Positions 21,924 through 28,574 of a DNA stretch of 35,281 nt are shown here, one piece after another. Under the pieces are notes generated by a model. That model had not been told where the DNA came from and made no database searches. It worked only from the letters and a program-made list of their open reading frames with translations. Numbering within the stretch: the first letter of the stretch is position 1; each line of letters opens with the position of its first letter. The translations under genes and the position numbers were made by a program. Source of the stretch: Candidatus Paceibacter sp. Lineage in GTDB: Bacteria; Patescibacteriota; Minisyncoccia; Phycocordibacterales; BOKC01. Location of the stretch: positions 1 through 35,281 of the forward strand of contig DYGD01000007.1 of NCBI GenBank assembly GCA_020724885.1, written 5' to 3'.

Positions 21924-24203
21924 ATGGAAAAATTTAGACCCCAACCAGAAATGCCCCGCCAAGAACCTGCTCCTGAACCGGAGATGGTTTACCGGGCATT
22001 AGATCGCAAAAAAGAAAAAGACCTATTGGCCGAATTCACTCCGGAACAGCAAGCGGAGATAAAACAAAAGCAACAGGTATTGTCCTCTCTCGCGTATTTT
22101 ATAGGCAAGGATTTTCGCATTCCGGTGGAGTTAAACGAACCGGGCGCGGGGTGGCATTGGGATTTCCAAGAAAACGTCATCCGTATTGACCCCAAAGACC
22201 TTTTGGAAAAACCAATGGATTATCTCCGTTTTGTCATTTCCCATGAAGGAGGCCACCGCAGAATCTCCAGAACTGATTTTATTCCATTGGAAGAATGGGA
22301 ACAGCCGGGCTTCGCCTTTATGATGAATGCCATTGAAGACCCACGCGATAATAATTTTGTCGCCGACAGTTATCCCAAGTTTCGGGAGCAGATGGGACTC
22401 GCCTACCAAGAAGATTTGGATTTTGAGGCGAAAGCGAAGCAAAAGGCAGATCAAAAGCTTGGATATCAGCCGCGCTTTATGCAAGCCGGATTCGAATACA
22501 TTAAACAGTGGTTCAGGGAGACGCAGGGAAAAGAATTTGAGCTCTCGGAAGATCTGCCCGAAGACGTGAAAGCGGCCGTCAGAGCGACACTGGAATCGGC
22601 TCGCGATTCATGGTGGAGATATCCGTCACGCCAAGAAGCGGACAAGGGAGGCAAGATAGGCAGAAAAAAAGCCAGTGGGGAGGAAATGATCAGGGAGTAT
22701 GCCCGAACATCTTATGAAATAAATCGCGATGAGGTTTGGCCGGAATTTAAAAAGCTGATCGAATCTGACATGGAAGATCAGAAAGCGCAGGAGCTCATAA
22801 AAGATATACAGCAAGATATGCAGCAAGGCCAGCAGGAAGGACAAGAAAGCGGTGAAGGCGGAGGCCAAGGATTGCCTCAAAACCTGAAAGACAAGCTTAC
22901 GCCGGAGGAACAGCAGGCATTGAGCGAAGCGATCAAGAACGCGGTCGAAGAGGCCAAGAAGGAAGAAGAAAAAGGCGACCTGCCCGCCGAAGCCTCGGCG
23001 CAGGCGGGAGGGCAAAGCGAAGGGCAAGGTCAAGAATCGGAAATCGGTCAGGAAACACCAACCGGAGGTAAACCGAGAGGCGTGCCAGTCAATCTGGATT
23101 CTCTGTCGCAAGAACTCAAGCAGAAAATAAAGGAATATATTGAATCGTTGCCGGAGGGAGAGCAGAGAGAAATTGCCGAGAAAGCCCAGGCGGCGTTCAA
23201 AGAATTTGAAGAAGCCCTGAATGAGGAATTACGGGGCAAATTATCCGACAATCCGGAAAAGAAAGCCGAGAGAGAAACCTCTCAGCCTCCGGAGGCCGAA
23301 GCACCCAAACGCGTGGAAACGAGCCGGGAGCTTCCTCCCGGAGTCGATCCTGAAGAGCTTAGAAAGTACAAAGAGCGGATCGCCAAAGAGGTGAAAAAAG
23401 ACGCCAACGTGTACGAGACAATGCGGCAGGAAGTCTTGCCCTTGATAGATAAGCTCGAAACCGAGTTGCGAGAAATATTTGTCGCTCGCAAAGCGAAAGG
23501 CTGGCAGAGCGGATTTACCACTGGCAAAAGAATTGATATTAAAAGAAGAATTCAGGAAAAGGCAAAATCCGTTCCGGCCATGGAAAGCAAAGCCTGGCAA
23601 AAGCGAGAAATGCCCGCTGAAAAAGATTACGCGATATCTCTGCTTGTTGACCTCTCCGGCTCAATGAAGGACGACGGAAAAATTAAAGAAACATTTAAGG
23701 CGGTTATTGTGCTGTCGGAGGTTTTTAACCGCCTGTCGATCAACTTGGAAATTTTGGGATTCAACGACCGGATATACGAATATCAAAGCTTTGGAGAGCA
23801 GATGTCTAAGGCCATCAGGGAACACATGGGAGGAATGCTCCAGGAAGTCAGTGACACGAGCGACACCGGCAAAGCGAAATGGAATGACGACGGCTGGGCA
23901 TTGGAGCAGGCTTCGGAGCGCTTAGCCAGACAAAAAGCTGATCAGAAATTTTTAGTGGTGCTGTCGGACGGCATTCCGAAAGAATCATCAATGCATCCGC
24001 GCTCAAAATACGAGCTGGGAAAGATGATTAAAAAAGTTTTGGATGAGACTGACCAACATTTAATCGGACTGGGAATAGGCCGGGGCACCGAGCATGTCGG
24101 CTCGTATTACCCAAACAGCATTGCCAATGTGAGGGTCAAGGAAATGGCTGAAAAGCTAGCCGGATTGATAAAAGAGGTCATTGTTAATTACGACAAATTT
24201 TAG
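21924..24203 (+). CDS. VWA-domain protein (CobT/NorD-like) with N-terminal HExxH zincin-like motif
   Basis: MIDAS-type DLSGSM in YAISLLVDLSGSMKDDGK; VISHEGGHRR and downstream NAIEDPRDN; low-complexity Gln/Glu/Gly linker. Confidence 0.85.
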   Translation: MEKFRPQPEMPRQEPAPEPEMVYRALDRKKEKDLLAEFTPEQQAEIKQKQQVLSSLAYFIGKDFRIPVELNEPGAGWHWDFQENVIRIDPKDLLEKPMDYLRFVISHEGGHRRISRTDFIPLEEWEQPGFAFMMNAIEDPRDNNFVADSYPKFREQMGLAYQEDLDFEAKAKQKADQKLGYQPRFMQAGFEYIKQWFRETQGKEFELSEDLPEDVKAAVRATLESARDSWWRYPSRQEADKGGKIGRKKASGEEMIREYARTSYEINRDEVWPEFKKLIESDMEDQKAQELIKDIQQDMQQGQQEGQESGEGGGQGLPQNLKDKLTPEEQQALSEAIKNAVEEAKKEEEKGDLPAEASAQAGGQSEGQGQESEIGQETPTGGKPRGVPVNLDSLSQELKQKIKEYIESLPEGEQREIAEKAQAAFKEFEEALNEELRGKLSDNPEKKAERETSQPPEAEAPKRVETSRELPPGVDPEELRKYKERIAKEVKKDANVYETMRQEVLPLIDKLETELREIFVARKAKGWQSGFTTGKRIDIKRRIQEKAKSVPAMESKAWQKREMPAEKDYAISLLVDLSGSMKDDGKIKETFKAVIVLSEVFNRLSINLEILGFNDRIYEYQSFGEQMSKAIREHMGGMLQEVSDTSDTGKAKWNDDGWALEQASERLARQKADQKFLVVLSDGIPKESSMHPRSKYELGKMIKKVLDETDQHLIGLGIGRGTEHVGSYYPNSIANVRVKEMAEKLAGLIKEVIVNYDKF

Positions 24204-24222
24204 TATTATTTAATTAACATTT

Positions 24223-24633
24223 ATGGCTACAGAAACGAAAAATTCATCCCTTGAAGAATTCCTGGCCGTCACAGCGGGGTCGAAGGATATGGGTTTGATT
24301 ATCGCCAAAGACGAGGGTGAGCTGGAGAGTCTTGCTCGGTCTTTGGACGGCATGGGTTTCAAGCGATCGAAGCAAATAGCCGAGCTTCCGAAACTTCAAA
24401 AAGCGTACTTTGTTGTCAACGAAAGCGCGTCAAAAGACGCCTATGATTTTGCGGTTCAGTATCCAACGGGGCAGGTAGAAATTTTTGATAAAGAACAAAT
24501 GCAGTCACAGTCTTTTTCGCCGGACTACGGCAGCCTCAACTTCGTCTTGTTGGTCGCCAAAGACGATTTAAATAAATTGCAAACGAAGGGCTTCGATCTG
24601 CTTTCCGCCGTGGGCCCGGCTTTTCAATCATAA
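24223..24633 (+). CDS. Uncharacterised 136-aa protein between VWA and MoxR genes
   Basis: Intact ORF, 19 nt after the VWA gene and 5 nt before the MoxR gene; no recognised motif. Confidence 0.75.
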   Translation: MATETKNSSLEEFLAVTAGSKDMGLIIAKDEGELESLARSLDGMGFKRSKQIAELPKLQKAYFVVNESASKDAYDFAVQYPTGQVEIFDKEQMQSQSFSPDYGSLNFVLLVAKDDLNKLQTKGFDLLSAVGPAFQS

Positions 24634-24638
24634 AATAT

Positions 24639-26705
24639 ATGCGATCACCCGAAAGACAATTTAACGCTTTGACTCCTGACCAAGAGAGGCAAACCGAAGC
24701 GCAAAAGACGCCAGAGATCTCGACACAAAAAGAAGCGGTCGCTGAAAATGAAACAAGCGTTTCTTACCTTGGCGTCACTCTTGAAAAAGCAAAAAACAAA
24801 GAGGGTCAGTTTGTTCCCAGAAGAGAGCAATACGCCGATTTCATAGACGACAGAGAAGTAGCCCTGCCTCTGCAAAGAGATGTTGCGGTGGCCTTTCTTT
24901 CCGGCGAGCCACTGCTCGTGGACGGCGGAACTTCTTTGGGAAAAACTACCACTGTCAGAAAAATGGCAGCCGAGCTCGGATGGGAAGTCCACTACGCCAA
25001 CCTCAACGGCCCAACCGATGTGGAAGATTTAATGGGGAGATACATTCCCAACCCTCATAAGAGCAAACCGGAAGACCCCGAGTATATTTTTGCCGACGGA
25101 AAAGTTACCAGCGGACTGAGGCAGGAAGAAGGTAAAGTCAAAATTGTGATTCTAGACGAGTTTAATGCGGCCGCGCCGAACATTCTTATTCGTCTCCACG
25201 AAGTCCTGGACGCTCTTGAGCGCGGAGGTGAAGTGATTCTATCCGAAGATGCTTCCGAAGCCGTCCAGGTCAATAAGGGCAAAACCAAAGTGATTGCTCT
25301 GATGAACCCGCCAGGCAAGGGTTATTTTGGACGCGAACCTCTCGATCCTGCCCAGCTGCGTCGTTGGGTTTATAAAAAATTGCCGTCCGAGCTGCCAGAA
25401 GGAACATTCTCCTATTCAACGGACGCTTTATTCGGTGCCGCACCGGAATCTCAGAACGTTACCCCCGACATGTTCTTGGCAAACAGAGAGCAGGCACTCA
25501 CGCAGGAGCAGCTTCAGGAAATCCCGGGCATTATGGAAGTTTTGGAAAAATATAAGGAATTTCACAAGGCCGCCAAGGAGCTCCTAAAAAGCAGAAAAGT
25601 CGCCGAAGATCAGCCGCAGCCTTTCACTTACGATGACCGCATGGAACCGCGCCGCGTGAGAGATTTTATTTTGAGATTTTACAACGGAGACATCAACGAG
25701 ACCTTTCAACAGGCTTTAAAATATTACTATGCCAATAAGCTGGAGACTGACGCCGACAGGAAAAAACTTGGTGAACTCATAAGGCTGGTGGAATACAAGC
25801 CAAAGGCGACCGAATCTAAACGCAAAGGGTTGGAGCGAGAGGAAAAAGCAGGTGTCACAGAAGTGAAAAAGGAAGCGGCAATACCAGAAGCAAAACTTGA
25901 GGGACCTGTCGCGGAACAGATTGAAGCGGCGATTGAAAAACTCGGCAAAGAAAACGTCTTTGGACCCAAGGAAGTGGAAAAAACCTTTGGTGTTCGTCTG
26001 GCGGAAGTGCCCGGTATCCCATTCTCAGTTGAAGAACTTGAAAGAGCGGAAAAAATGGGACAAATGCTTGTCTTGCGAGTCGATAAAACCGACGATGGCA
26101 AGCCTATGTCTTTGGAAGCCATGACCGGGATCATCGTAAAACGATGGGAGAAAGATAAGAAAGGCGGTTTGCTTAACACGGCCGAGGGTTGGAGAGATCA
26201 AGTGACCGGTGCGGAAGATTTTGCCAAAATCGCGCCGCGTTCCGGTTGGGCGTTGGTCTCAAAGGATTTATTGCCGGATAGCACAAGCAAAAATTATGTC
26301 GAGCAAACAGAAGTTATAATAAAAGCCTTGAGAGAGGGAGCGTTTAAGGACATGGAAATGCCTGAAGAGTATGCCGAAGCAATCAATGAATTTAATGAGC
26401 AGAAAGAGAGACTGATAAAACTAATGAACGAAGATTGGATGGAAGCCGCAAAACAGCTTTCAGAGCTAAAAATCAATCAGTTAACAAGGCAATCGATTCA
26501 AGAAACCATTTATGATTTGGCGATGTACCATGACACTCACAACAAACGTTTATTGCCGAATAGATACACATGGCCAAACTCTCGTTCCTCTGTCGGCGGC
26601 CTCGTCGCTCTCGGCGATTTCGTCGCGCGTGGCGTGAACGGCTACTGGTGGAGGCCCGGCTATCGCGACGACGATGTCGGCGTTTCTCTTTCCCGCAGAT
26701 TGTAA
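24639..26705 (+). CDS. MoxR-type AAA+ ATPase fused to a DGR variable C-terminal domain (DGR target protein)
   Basis: Walker A GGTSLGKTT (codons at about 24924-24950), Walker B IVILDEFN, sensor region ALMNPPGKGYFG. The C-terminus GVNGYWWRPGYRDDDVGVSLSRRL is encoded by the VR. Confidence 0.9.
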   Translation: MRSPERQFNALTPDQERQTEAQKTPEISTQKEAVAENETSVSYLGVTLEKAKNKEGQFVPRREQYADFIDDREVALPLQRDVAVAFLSGEPLLVDGGTSLGKTTTVRKMAAELGWEVHYANLNGPTDVEDLMGRYIPNPHKSKPEDPEYIFADGKVTSGLRQEEGKVKIVILDEFNAAAPNILIRLHEVLDALERGGEVILSEDASEAVQVNKGKTKVIALMNPPGKGYFGREPLDPAQLRRWVYKKLPSELPEGTFSYSTDALFGAAPESQNVTPDMFLANREQALTQEQLQEIPGIMEVLEKYKEFHKAAKELLKSRKVAEDQPQPFTYDDRMEPRRVRDFILRFYNGDINETFQQALKYYYANKLETDADRKKLGELIRLVEYKPKATESKRKGLEREEKAGVTEVKKEAAIPEAKLEGPVAEQIEAAIEKLGKENVFGPKEVEKTFGVRLAEVPGIPFSVEELERAEKMGQMLVLRVDKTDDGKPMSLEAMTGIIVKRWEKDKKGGLLNTAEGWRDQVTGAEDFAKIAPRSGWALVSKDLLPDSTSKNYVEQTEVIIKALREGAFKDMEMPEEYAEAINEFNEQKERLIKLMNEDWMEAAKQLSELKINQLTRQSIQETIYDLAMYHDTHNKRLLPNRYTWPNSRSSVGGLVALGDFVARGVNGYWWRPGYRDDDVGVSLSRRL
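26583..26698 (+). repeat. DGR variable repeat (VR), 116 bp, in frame with the MoxR ATPase gene
   Basis: Hand alignment to 26988-27103 (offset 405): 102/116 identical. All 14 differences are TR A to VR G/C/T. Confidence 0.96.
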
Positions 26706-26735
26706 CTTTGACCTTTGTTACTTGATCCTTTGATT
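26702..26735 (+). repeat. Direct repeat copy A, after VR
   Basis: GTAACTTTGACCTTTGTTACTTGATCCTTTGATT; 30/34 identical to 28541-28574. Confidence 0.6.
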
Positions 26736-26742
26736 CCTTTTT

Positions 26743-26771
26743 AATCGACTCCCTTTAGGGAGTCGATTTTT
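26743..26771 (+). terminator. Terminator / possible DGR target hairpin downstream of VR
   Basis: AATCGACTCCCT (26743-26754) / AGGGAGTCGATT (26757-26768) followed by TTT. Confidence 0.75.
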
Positions 26772-26803
26772 CGCGGCAATTTTTTAGGCGCTTATAGATG
26801 TGG

Positions 26804-26809
26804 TATACT
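26804..26809 (+). promoter_or_regulatory. Putative -10 element (TATACT) for TR-RT transcript
   Basis: TGTGGTATACTGG about 180 nt upstream of the TR; no convincing -35. Confidence 0.3.
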
Positions 26810-26987
26810 GGAAACGGCTAATGAAGCATGGTTCACGGATCATGTTCGCCAATTAAATACACTGCTTACGTTTTTCTAGCGCAGGTGAAATTGATTTACG
26901 GAGTGCGCACATATTTACACAAGCGCGACACGTCCCATTAGCGTGAAGTGCTGTTGCCACGGACGGAAAAACGTAAAGAGAAATGTT

Positions 26988-27103
26988 CGTTCCTCTGTCG
27001 GCGACCTCGTCGATCTCGGCAATTTCGACGCGAATGGCGTGAACGGCAACAGGTGGAAGCCCGACAATCGCGACGACAATATCGGCGTTTCTCTTTCCCG
27101 AAG
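26988..27103 (+). repeat. DGR template repeat (TR), 116 bp
   Basis: Pairs with VR 26583-26698; contains N/D codons (AAT/AAC/GAC/GAT) at the varied positions; lies outside any plausible protein gene. Confidence 0.96.
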
Positions 27104-27111
27104 TGTTGCGG

Positions 27112-27136
27112 AACTCGCCTATTTTAAGGGCGAGTT
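27112..27136 (+). other. Hairpin immediately 3' of TR
   Basis: AACTCGCC (27112-27119) / GGCGAGTT (27129-27136), followed by TT; overlaps the avd stop codon on the other strand. Confidence 0.6.
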
Positions 27137-27502
27137 TTGCGTTTGTCGCATCCAACCTCCCAGCATCTTGCCAATTTCTTGAAGGCGACCCTCGTATTGC
27201 ACGTACCAGTGTTGTTCAATGGCTTTCACGTCTTTCGCTAATCTGATAGTGATCTTTGCGCATTCCAGAGACATGTTGGCTTCGGACAGAATTTCTTTTT
27301 TATGGTGAGAATCCTTAGTGTGATATGCGGTCACTGTAAGGGTCAATACATCCAGCAAAAGACTCTCTGTTTTTTGCCCGATGGTAAACCTGTCCTTTTT
27401 GGGAATGGATTCGCATCGCACATGCCAGGCGACGTATAATTTATATACCGCTTGGAACAATGGAGTCTGGTGAGCAAGCTGTGCGTTGGTATTATTTTCC
27501 AT
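27119..27502 (-). CDS. avd: DGR accessory variability determinant (Avd)-like four-helix bundle protein
   Basis: MENNTNAQLAHQTPLFQAVYKLYVAWHVRCESIPKKDRFTIGQKTESLLLDVLTLTVTAYH...EGRLQEIGKMLGGWMRQTQ matches the Avd/S23-like helical bundle pattern. Start set at 27502. Confidence 0.8.
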   Translation of the reverse strand: MENNTNAQLAHQTPLFQAVYKLYVAWHVRCESIPKKDRFTIGQKTESLLLDVLTLTVTAYHTKDSHHKKEILSEANMSLECAKITIRLAKDVKAIEQHWYVQYEGRLQEIGKMLGGWMRQTQNSPLK

Positions 27503-27506
27503 ATTT

Positions 27507-28463
27507 ATGTTCGATAAAATTATTTCTTTGGAGAACCTGTTCGACGCTTGGACGGAGTTCAAGAGAGACAAGAACAACAAAAAAGACGTGGCGGAATTCG
27601 AGATTGGCCTCGAAGACTACGTTTTTAAGTTGCATGATGATTTGAAAAATCAGGCATACAAGCACGGTGCCTATGTTTCTTTTTTCATTCACGATCCAAA
27701 ACGCCGCCATATACATAAGGCGTCGGTCAGAGATCGATTGCTTCATCACGCCGTCCACAGGATCATAGAGCCAATATGGAACAAAACCTTTATCTTTGAT
27801 TCTTGGTCGTCCAGGAAAAACAAAGGAACTCACGCCGCGGTAAAACGGCTGCAAAAATTTGGACTTGAATTGTCTAGAAACCATACCCTGACATTGTGGG
27901 TGTTGAAGTTGGATATAAGAAATTTTTTTGATTCTGTTAACCACAAAATTCTAATGGACATTCTCAAACAATGCGCGCCCGATAATCGACTCTTGGCACT
28001 TTTTCGAGAAATAATAGAAAGCTTTTCTCCCGGATTGCCTCTGGGCAATTTGACTTCCCAACTGTTCGCCAATGTTTATATGAACCGACTGGATCAATTT
28101 GTTAAACATGAATTGAAAATCGTCGGGTATGTTCGATATGCCGACGATTTCGTTCTTCTCCATCCAGACCGAGAACTGTTGATTGAGTGTCTCGATAAAA
28201 TAACAAGCTTCTTGCAAGACCAACTTCACCTCGACGTTCATCCGAAAAAAATAGTACTCAAAAGGTATGCTGGTGGAATCGATTATCTTGGATATGTTTG
28301 CTTCCCTCATTATAGAGTTTTAAGAACCAAGACAAAGCGGCGGATGTTTAAAAGAGTCAATGAGAAAAATTTTTCTTCCTATAATGGAATCCTCCAACAT
28401 TGTCGATCAATAAATTTGCAAGCCAAATTGCTTGAAGTGGTTAAGAAAAAAGACGAGAAGTGA
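27507..28463 (+). CDS. DGR-type reverse transcriptase
   Basis: LPLGNLTSQLFANVYMN (28035 onward; DGR-type xGxxxSQ), YVRYADDFVLL (YADD codons 28137-28148), LDIRNFFDSVNH, KIVLKRYAGGIDYLGY. Confidence 0.95.
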   Translation: MFDKIISLENLFDAWTEFKRDKNNKKDVAEFEIGLEDYVFKLHDDLKNQAYKHGAYVSFFIHDPKRRHIHKASVRDRLLHHAVHRIIEPIWNKTFIFDSWSSRKNKGTHAAVKRLQKFGLELSRNHTLTLWVLKLDIRNFFDSVNHKILMDILKQCAPDNRLLALFREIIESFSPGLPLGNLTSQLFANVYMNRLDQFVKHELKIVGYVRYADDFVLLHPDRELLIECLDKITSFLQDQLHLDVHPKKIVLKRYAGGIDYLGYVCFPHYRVLRTKTKRRMFKRVNEKNFSSYNGILQHCRSINLQAKLLEVVKKKDEK

Positions 28464-28540
28464 CCGAAAGGCTCCGTGGAGAATTTTCCCAAACAAAAAA
28501 CCCGCCACGTGTCCTCCGACGCTTGGGGCACCTTGTATGT

Positions 28541-28574
28541 GTAACTTTGGCCTTTGATATTTGATCCTTTTATT
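28541..28574 (+). repeat. Direct repeat copy B, after RT
   Basis: GTAACTTTGGCCTTTGATATTTGATCCTTTTATT; followed by GGCCCCATTAGGGGTTTTT, a terminator-like hairpin, as in copy A. Confidence 0.6.

Follow-up and report, generated by a model that had tools for sequence, protein, structure and literature searches.

What is a DGR doing at the end of a MoxR-type ATPase? The question is raised by a stretch of 35,281 nucleotides from Candidatus Paceibacter sp., one of the ultra-small bacteria of the Patescibacteria (contig DYGD01000007.1), referred to here as the window. An initial annotation, made from the letters alone, recognized in it a complete DGR, whose VR (26583..26698, + strand) lies at the end of a gene for an AAA+ protein and whose TR (26988..27103, + strand) follows downstream. 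The DGR is confirmed, but that reading overlooked Avd, a vWA gene, a gene for a 136-aa protein, and an RNA upstream of TR. The answer proposed below draws on all of these.

The target is a protein of 688 aa (24639..26705, + strand), a MoxR/NorQ/CobS-type AAA+ fused to a DGR-variable domain and called MoxR-VR in what follows. It matches AAA_5 (E=1.7e-12), and the best matches of its AAA+ profile in the PDB are midasin, NorQ, CobS, and CbbQ, in keeping with its original assignment to the MoxR clade. As had been read, neither Walker motif is damaged (A, GGTSLGKT; B, VILDE). The search for further AAA+/MoxR-VR fusions that had been recommended found the fusion in 18 de-duplicated ORFs. It had also been asked whether the C-terminal domain might be part of the AAA+ core. 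Free-standing homologues (proteins of 270-350 aa found in many genomes) show that the variable domain (VRdom; 25911..26702, + strand) is separable from it. The recommended check of its fold gave a mixed result. The AF2 model is excellent (pLDDT 96.8, pTM 0.94), but no Foldseek match falls below E 0.001; over the last ~75 residues the list is dominated by CLec, FGE, Mtd, and TvpA structures at E values of at least 0.2, among them the variable proteins TvpA and Mtd of other DGRs and relatives of the formylglycine-generating enzyme. Judged from these models, the C-terminus of VRdom is probably C-type-lectin-like, and a C-type lectin fold for the domain is plausible. VRdom has no match in Pfam, none by sequence profile in the PDB, and none below E 0.25 in a viral structure library.

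Two genes precede that of MoxR-VR, one for a vWA protein (21924..24203, + strand; Pfam CobT_C 1.1e-12, VWA 4.9e-5) and one for the 136-aa partner (24223..24633, + strand), which is conserved in 19 sequences. All three, in the order vWA(HExxH), P-loop-less partner, MoxR-VR, are found in 18 of 18 core-clade loci compared. The vWA protein joins a C-terminal MIDAS domain like those of CobT, midasin, and NorD, the proteins that its profile matches in the PDB, to an N-terminal domain with the signature HExxH...N..[ED]D...N. Residues H107, E108, H111, N135, D139, and N143 of the latter and D576, S578, and S580 of the MIDAS are invariant in 17 of 17 sequences. The HExxH domain has no Pfam peptidase match. 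The 136-aa partner matches nothing in Pfam, and a GxxxxGK[ST] P-loop motif is absent from every member of its family. From its AF2 model (pLDDT 86.5; Foldseek RuvB 8.8e-5, NorQ 1.9e-3) it is predicted to be an AAA+-like alpha/beta fold without a P-loop. VRdom and the vWA family occur in the same genome 9 times, where about 1.6 would be expected (P=3e-6). In some loci a free-standing VRdom adjoins MoxR and vWA genes, and one TR feeds up to three VRs, with an A-bias of 17/18, 17/18, and 19/20 in the locus that has three. No known effector domain was found in the cassette, and PADLOC found no established defence system. The search for related loci was driven by a two-sequence full-length alignment. 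One genome of the same genus was examined and has no match to the MoxR-VR protein, so the system is accessory. A hydrophobicity scan found no segment above 1.6 in MoxR-VR, vWA, 136-aa, or free-standing VRdom proteins. This lack of predicted membrane segments in the cassette favors an intracellular sensor or client selector.

I propose that in Patescibacteria a cellular DGR diversifies the exposed end of a MoxR-type AAA+ protein, which functions together with the vWA(HExxH) protein and an AAA-like subunit lacking a P-loop. A short RNA, made up of a leader, TR, and a 3' hairpin, would be copied by RT with Avd, its adenines randomized, and the cDNA would replace VR. A binding surface, probably of lectin fold, could in this way take up to about 7e12 forms. 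That surface would bind an intracellular ligand, most likely one from a phage or other invader. The ATPase ring would relay the binding to the vWA(HExxH) partner through remodelling, and the partner would then act as an effector or release one. For the leader, the likeliest tasks are to dock RT/Avd, to mark where the copied segment has its 5' end, or both. Taken whole, from DGR and three-part machine to intracellular ligand sensing and leader docking, this explanation strikes me as the best available and somewhat more probable than its denial. At the level of sequence, the A-specific relation of VR to TR, the fusion, the conserved cassette, the cytosolic type of its proteins, and the RNA leader beside TR are established. 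A part for the leader in priming would be a further step, and so would a role in defence, which I infer by analogy: MoxR-vWA-DGR systems have been interpreted as antigen sensors (PMC7159879, PMC10907252), though the RTs of those systems belong to other DGR clades (PMC10907252).

An alternative view is that the variable domain picks proteins for remodelling or proteolysis by MoxR-vWA(HExxH), in the service of housekeeping or of interaction with a host cell rather than of sensing invaders. The same anatomy would fit, the HExxH is invariant, and the relatives CobS, NorQ, and midasin remodel specific clients by way of vWA partners. However, random diversification is better suited to unpredictable ligands than to fixed self clients, and the system is accessory, judging from the same-genus genome. 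I consider the selection of clients unlikely, though by no means far-fetched.

Is the DGR behind the proposed sensor still at work? TR, found by repeat search and gapless alignment to VR, agrees with it over 116 bp (117 bp as returned by the repeat search), and the mismatches, 14 in number (A>G 7, A>T 4, A>C 3), are every one at an adenine of TR, while 10 of the 24 TR adenines are identical in VR. These are the counts originally claimed, and the hypergeometric chance of 14/14 is 4.8e-12. VR encodes aa 649-686 of MoxR-VR and ends two codons before the stop. The initial annotation's reading frame holds, and the translations of TR and VR differ by the 12 residues that it gave. In related loci 644 of 687 mismatches are at TR-A, a figure from 41 pairs in 23 loci that were themselves chosen at an A-bias of at least 70%; the 14/14 of the present locus is the unselected test. 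Across the family, diversity is higher at the variable codons than elsewhere in VR (P=1.3e-5), and a single codon can turn into a stop. A hairpin of 11 bp, 45 bp past VR (26743..26768, + strand; DNA fold z=-6.0), is taken to be a DGR-type downstream stem-loop and/or a terminator.

The enzyme is as expected. RT (27507..28463, + strand; RVT_1 E=1.7e-23) has in translation LGNLTSQ, the xGxxxSQ motif reported earlier, together with YADD, and its homologues adjoin A-biased TR/VR in 23 loci. Avd (27119..27502, - strand; bAvd E=3.9e-17) also hits NCBIfam DivGenRetAVD at 8.1e-20, below that model's cut-off. Its gene runs antisense to TR and diverges from RT, the ATGs of the two genes lying 4 bp apart (that of RT at 27507), and avd lies on the strand opposite to RT in 23 of 23 loci. 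A-confined TR/VR mismatches, an xGxxxSQ/YxDD RT, Avd, and a target gene with VR at its 3' end are all present, as in a DGR. Near the genome's second RT (C8) there is neither a TR nor Avd nor a repeat. Damaged systems do occur among the relatives (L019 has a split RT, and in L046 only 15/21 TR/VR differences are at A), and one might suppose that here, too, diversification has ceased and the VR/TR difference is a fossil. But at this locus none of RT, Avd, TR, leader, and VR is damaged, and the differences include no drift mutations. Decay is improbable.

A covarying three-way-junction leader (26860..26980, + strand) adjoins the 5' end of TR. It scores 88 bits with covariance model R1, and its pairs in the window, from RNA folding, form P1 (26866-26877/26965-26976), P2 (26879-26883/26904-26908 and 26885-26889/26895-26899), and P3 (26922-26926/26948-26952 and 26929-26933/26941-26945). 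P1 cells are paired in 94% of cases, compared to 49-56% in slid controls; in 19 further loci the values are 93% and 44-56%, with double changes at 22 of 24 pairs. R1 has matches in 29 of 380 Patescibacteria genomes. The loci returned number 30, all at DGRs, with 19 of the 30 outside the model-building set. The ratio of G.U to A.C, 63:6, places the leader on the TR strand. No Rfam family reaches its gathering score (the match to sX7, E=0.52, is a chance one), R1 is absent from a negative set of eight non-Patescibacteria DGRs of phage and plasmid, and no earlier description of this conserved folded leader was found. Upstream is a GGC...GCC hairpin (26816..26850, + strand; the CATGGTTCA-CGGA-TCATG region), seen in the alignment and recognizable there, by informal estimate, in roughly half of the related loci. 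A promoter scan flagged none before the leader; a TATACT at 26804-26809 was spotted by eye only.

Directly 3' of TR, and overlapping the end of avd, is a hairpin with a 14-bp stem (27107..27141, + strand), probably the end of the template RNA. Stems of at least 8 bp occur there in 28 of 34 loci, as against 13% of shuffles. The alignment has no conserved base pairs 3' of TR, and the space is taken up by antisense avd. The template RNA of Patescibacteria DGRs may be rearranged, with the leader 5' of TR and antisense avd 3', where the prototype has the spacer that serves RT recruitment and priming. Recruitment of RT/Avd, and perhaps priming, would then take place on the 5' side or in some other way, and the RNA would drive the diversification of a MoxR-vWA sensor machine inside the cell. 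I would put this at a little less than an even chance. The RNA structure is a computed one, and it could instead be the regulatory leader of another transcript, a riboswitch or attenuator. That is a poor prospect: its match ends at most 7 nt from TR in 16 of 16 loci, it stays with TR in the locus (L114) where TR is turned relative to RT, and all 30 genome matches returned are DGRs. Least probable is a surface adhesin or host-attachment protein like the DGR targets of Legionella and Treponema: Patescibacteria are epibionts and DGRs are often tied to attachment (PMC8144416, PMC8867640), but the variable domain is fused to a cytosolic AAA+ and the hydrophobicity scan revealed no signal or membrane segment, which supports the initial suggestion that the protein is not an adhesin.

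DGR targets in CPR usually lack recognizable domains or membrane anchors (PMC8144416). With this locus and its relatives, many such targets find a place in a single intracellular AAA+/vWA cassette, so that sensor and adhesin can be directly tested against each other. R1 serves as a marker for Patescibacteria DGRs independent of the target gene. The absence of a conserved 3' spacer amounts to a testable mechanistic difference in cDNA recruitment or priming, and if the leader replaces the spacer, there are at least two layouts of DGR template RNA, a matter relevant to compact tools for targeted mutagenesis.

As an AAA+/vWA remodelling pair, the cassette resembles NorQ-NorD, CobS-CobT, and CbbQ-CbbO. 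Those pairs, whose clients are fixed metalloenzymes, are not known to carry a diversified domain. With the BPP-1 DGR (Mtd/Avd/bRT) the locus shares adenine mutagenesis between TR and VR, Avd, RT, and a C-terminal VR; it differs in its target, which is no tail fibre, and in the antisense orientation of avd. Conserved RNA structure is found on the 5' side of TR here but on its 3' side, between TR and RT, in BPP-1, where the 3' spacer (sp) recruits bRT-Avd (PMC12875486).

MoxR-vWA ternary conflict systems of the VMAP type (Kaur et al. 2020, PMC7159879; Thiohalocapsa DGRs, PMC10907252) likewise combine a MoxR-clade AAA+/vWA pair with a DGR-diversified domain. In them the variable FGS domain is on the vWA protein, whereas here it is on MoxR or free-standing; the vWA protein here, unlike theirs, carries HExxH; and CPR RTs are reported to form mostly a distinct clade (PMC10907252). 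Among 10 proteins encoded between 20344 and 32331, a Pfam scan found no VMAP, iSTAND, FtsH, or beta-propeller, and by eye there is no Trp before residue 115, hence none of the Trp-containing N-terminal motifs of VMAP-type MoxR. The third component and the fusion partner rule out a Kaur-type ternary system (PMC7159879).

A close likeness is to the AAA-CLec targets of CPR (Paul et al. 2017, cited in PMC10907252), which share the AAA+ with a C-terminal variable domain, the CPR host, and a DGR in cis. According to PMC10907252, this is the commonest architecture of CPR DGR targets, so the fusion is not new in itself, contrary to what the initial annotation had implied. That text has no vWA/P-loop-less partner cassette and no template leader RNA, both present here. 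What this locus adds to the known AAA+-CLec fusion is a conserved three-gene cassette and a structured RNA at the 5' end of TR.

The VR (26583-26698) and TR (26988-27103) lie exactly where the initial annotation placed them, and they differ only at TR adenines (14 of 14 mismatches, P=4.8e-12). Its reading frame and its translations of both repeats are also correct, the VR stopping two codons short of the stop codon of the 688-aa protein MoxR-VR (24639-26705, plus strand). Its DGR inventory of VR, TR and reverse transcriptase (RT; motifs LGNLTSQ and YADD) holds as far as it goes, having overlooked an avd gene, antisense between TR and RT (27119-27502; bAvd 3.9e-17). The avd and RT genes are divergent, their ATGs 4 bp apart (27119-27507), and the two lie on opposite strands in each of 23 related loci; in the DGRs compared from phages and plasmids, by contrast, the annotated avd shares the RT strand. 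A 35-bp repeat (89%) lies in the intergenic stretch after the VR gene (26701-26735) and again after the RT gene (28540-28574), possibly a trace of duplication or of a second VR gene end.

The most novel element of the locus, which the initial annotation did not include, is a conserved structured RNA immediately 5' of the TR, at 26860-26980. Its closing helix, P1 (12-13 bp), varies in sequence between loci. Across 20 loci, 94.2% of P1 cells are paired (49-56% when slid), 54 cells show double changes (4-17 slid), and covariation is 0.648 versus 0.272 +/- 0.026 in shuffles. A covariance model run over 380 Patescibacteria (CPR) genomes matched 29, and all 30 loci returned are DGRs, as judged by Avd or RT (28), a VR-domain gene (1) or an A-biased TR/VR pair (1). 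Nineteen of the 30 were outside the training set, and a structure-free alignment of these on their own recovers P1 and two further helices, P2 and P3, with double changes at 22 of 24 pairs and 93.3% pairing versus 44-56% slid; as the 19 were recruited by a P1-based model, the more independent evidence comes from P2 and P3. In 16 of 16 cases no more than 7 nt separate the end of the match from the start of the TR, and G.U outnumbers A.C by 63:6, so the RNA is on the TR strand. None of the eight DGRs compared from phages and plasmids, all with A-biased TR/VR pairs, contains it, and it has no match in Rfam. No 5' leader is described in the literature searched, a coverage that excludes the main CPR DGR paper.

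Residues 1-410 of MoxR-VR are a MoxR-clade AAA+ ATPase (AAA_5 1.7e-12), with midasin, NorQ, CobS and CbbQ as top PDB matches of its profile and with Walker A, Walker B and the sensor-1 Asn invariant family-wide. Residues 425-688 are a distinct domain. The possibility, raised at the outset, that this C-terminus belongs to the AAA+ core is excluded, because many genomes also encode the domain on its own (~270-350 aa). AF2 models it with high confidence (pLDDT 96.8, pTM 0.94). Foldseek gives nothing significant; its weak matches (TvpA, Mtd variants, EgtB, FGE) are mostly C-type-lectin relatives, over the last ~75 residues. Fifteen VR codons are changeable at A, giving about 7e12 proteins with a possible stop in one codon only, and these codons vary more across the family than the remaining VR codons (P=1.3e-5).

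A genome-contig scan, followed by annotation of ~60 loci, revealed a conserved cassette: genes for a vWA protein, a 136-aa protein and MoxR occur together in 18 of 18 non-duplicate core-MoxR-clade loci, from Zambryskibacteria, Falkowbacteria, Doudnabacteria, Howlettbacteria, Gottesmanbacteria, Magasanikbacteria and other Patescibacteria. The vWA family resembles CobT, midasin and NorD, with HExxH and N/D residues invariant and MIDAS intact. Since the HExxH domain has no Pfam peptidase match, protease activity is no more than a suggestion. The 136-aa protein is modeled as AAA+-like (RuvB 8.8e-5, NorQ 1.9e-3) and lacks a P-loop. A hydrophobicity scan of MoxR-VR, vWA, 136-aa and VR-domain proteins found no membrane segment.

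Most core MoxR C-termini bear the VR domain of the window. One (L065, 9929-12193) carries a different C-terminal domain with a VR (12 of 13 TR/VR mismatches at A), and therefore the variable end is exchangeable. Three others (L062-L064; L062, 4577-6517) have different ends, VR-like by eye, and one (L014) has no variable end. In the MoxR tree several clades hold proteins with the fusion and proteins lacking it, so the VR domain has been swapped. It also ends 920-950-aa AAA+ proteins (L098, L103, L105, L107). Other genomes have VRdom-MoxR-VRdom-vWA-VRdom operons, three VRs matching a single TR (mismatches at A 17/18, 17/18 and 19/20 in L049; L051 likewise). Among the 380 genomes, 36 have the VR domain, 17 the vWA family and 9 both (Fisher P=3e-6). 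Genome G546 has tandem VR-domain gene arrays, of at least five (L101:1-5685) and eight (L102:1-14000), the latter adjoining vWA and MoxR genes; no DGR appears in the stretch read around them. The closest relative (L058:348-7923) comes from a contig assigned to Anaerolineaceae (SURF_68), probably through a mistake in binning, because its gene content appears Patescibacterial.

The window is one entire contig of a 592-kb genome in 18 contigs. The cassette is flanked by lysS and mraZ, and MoxR-VR has no match in the one other genome compared from the genus. A second DGR-like RT, 51% identical, lies elsewhere in the genome (L005:9692-10516 = G000:C8:37700-38611, minus), flanked by rpsF and tatD; with no Avd, TR or repeats in its vicinity, it is an orphan or works in trans. 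A bAvd-like four-helix protein, also encoded away from this locus in the genome (G000:C7:54812-55123, L161), is a weak match under the cut-off.

The sequence shows the anatomy, the adenine-specific difference and the conservation of both cassette and RNA. Going beyond this, I propose that the leader docks RT/Avd, or fixes the 5' limit of the cDNA, that the cDNA would then rewrite the VR, and that the variable surface may bind an intracellular ligand, binding that the ATPase ring would relay to the vWA (HExxH) partner. The initial annotation suggested that the surface may select clients or targets. I prefer, purely by analogy, to think that the cassette senses invaders, because MoxR-vWA-DGR systems of multicellular bacteria have been interpreted as antigen sensors (PMC7159879, PMC10907252).

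AAA-CLec is the commonest target architecture of CPR DGRs (PMC10907252 citing Paul 2017), so the AAA+-VR fusion that headed the initial annotation belongs to a known kind. The locus departs from that kind in its partner genes and most of all in its template leader RNA. In BPP-1, a structured spacer 3' of the TR recruits bRT-Avd and primes cDNA (PMC12875486), whereas in the window and its relatives the structured RNA is 5' of the TR; 3' of it there is no conserved structure at the alignment level, a local hairpin occurring in 28 of 34 loci, then antisense avd. The window cassette lacks three traits of the Kaur ternary systems and so, although it would work like them, lies outside their four described types.
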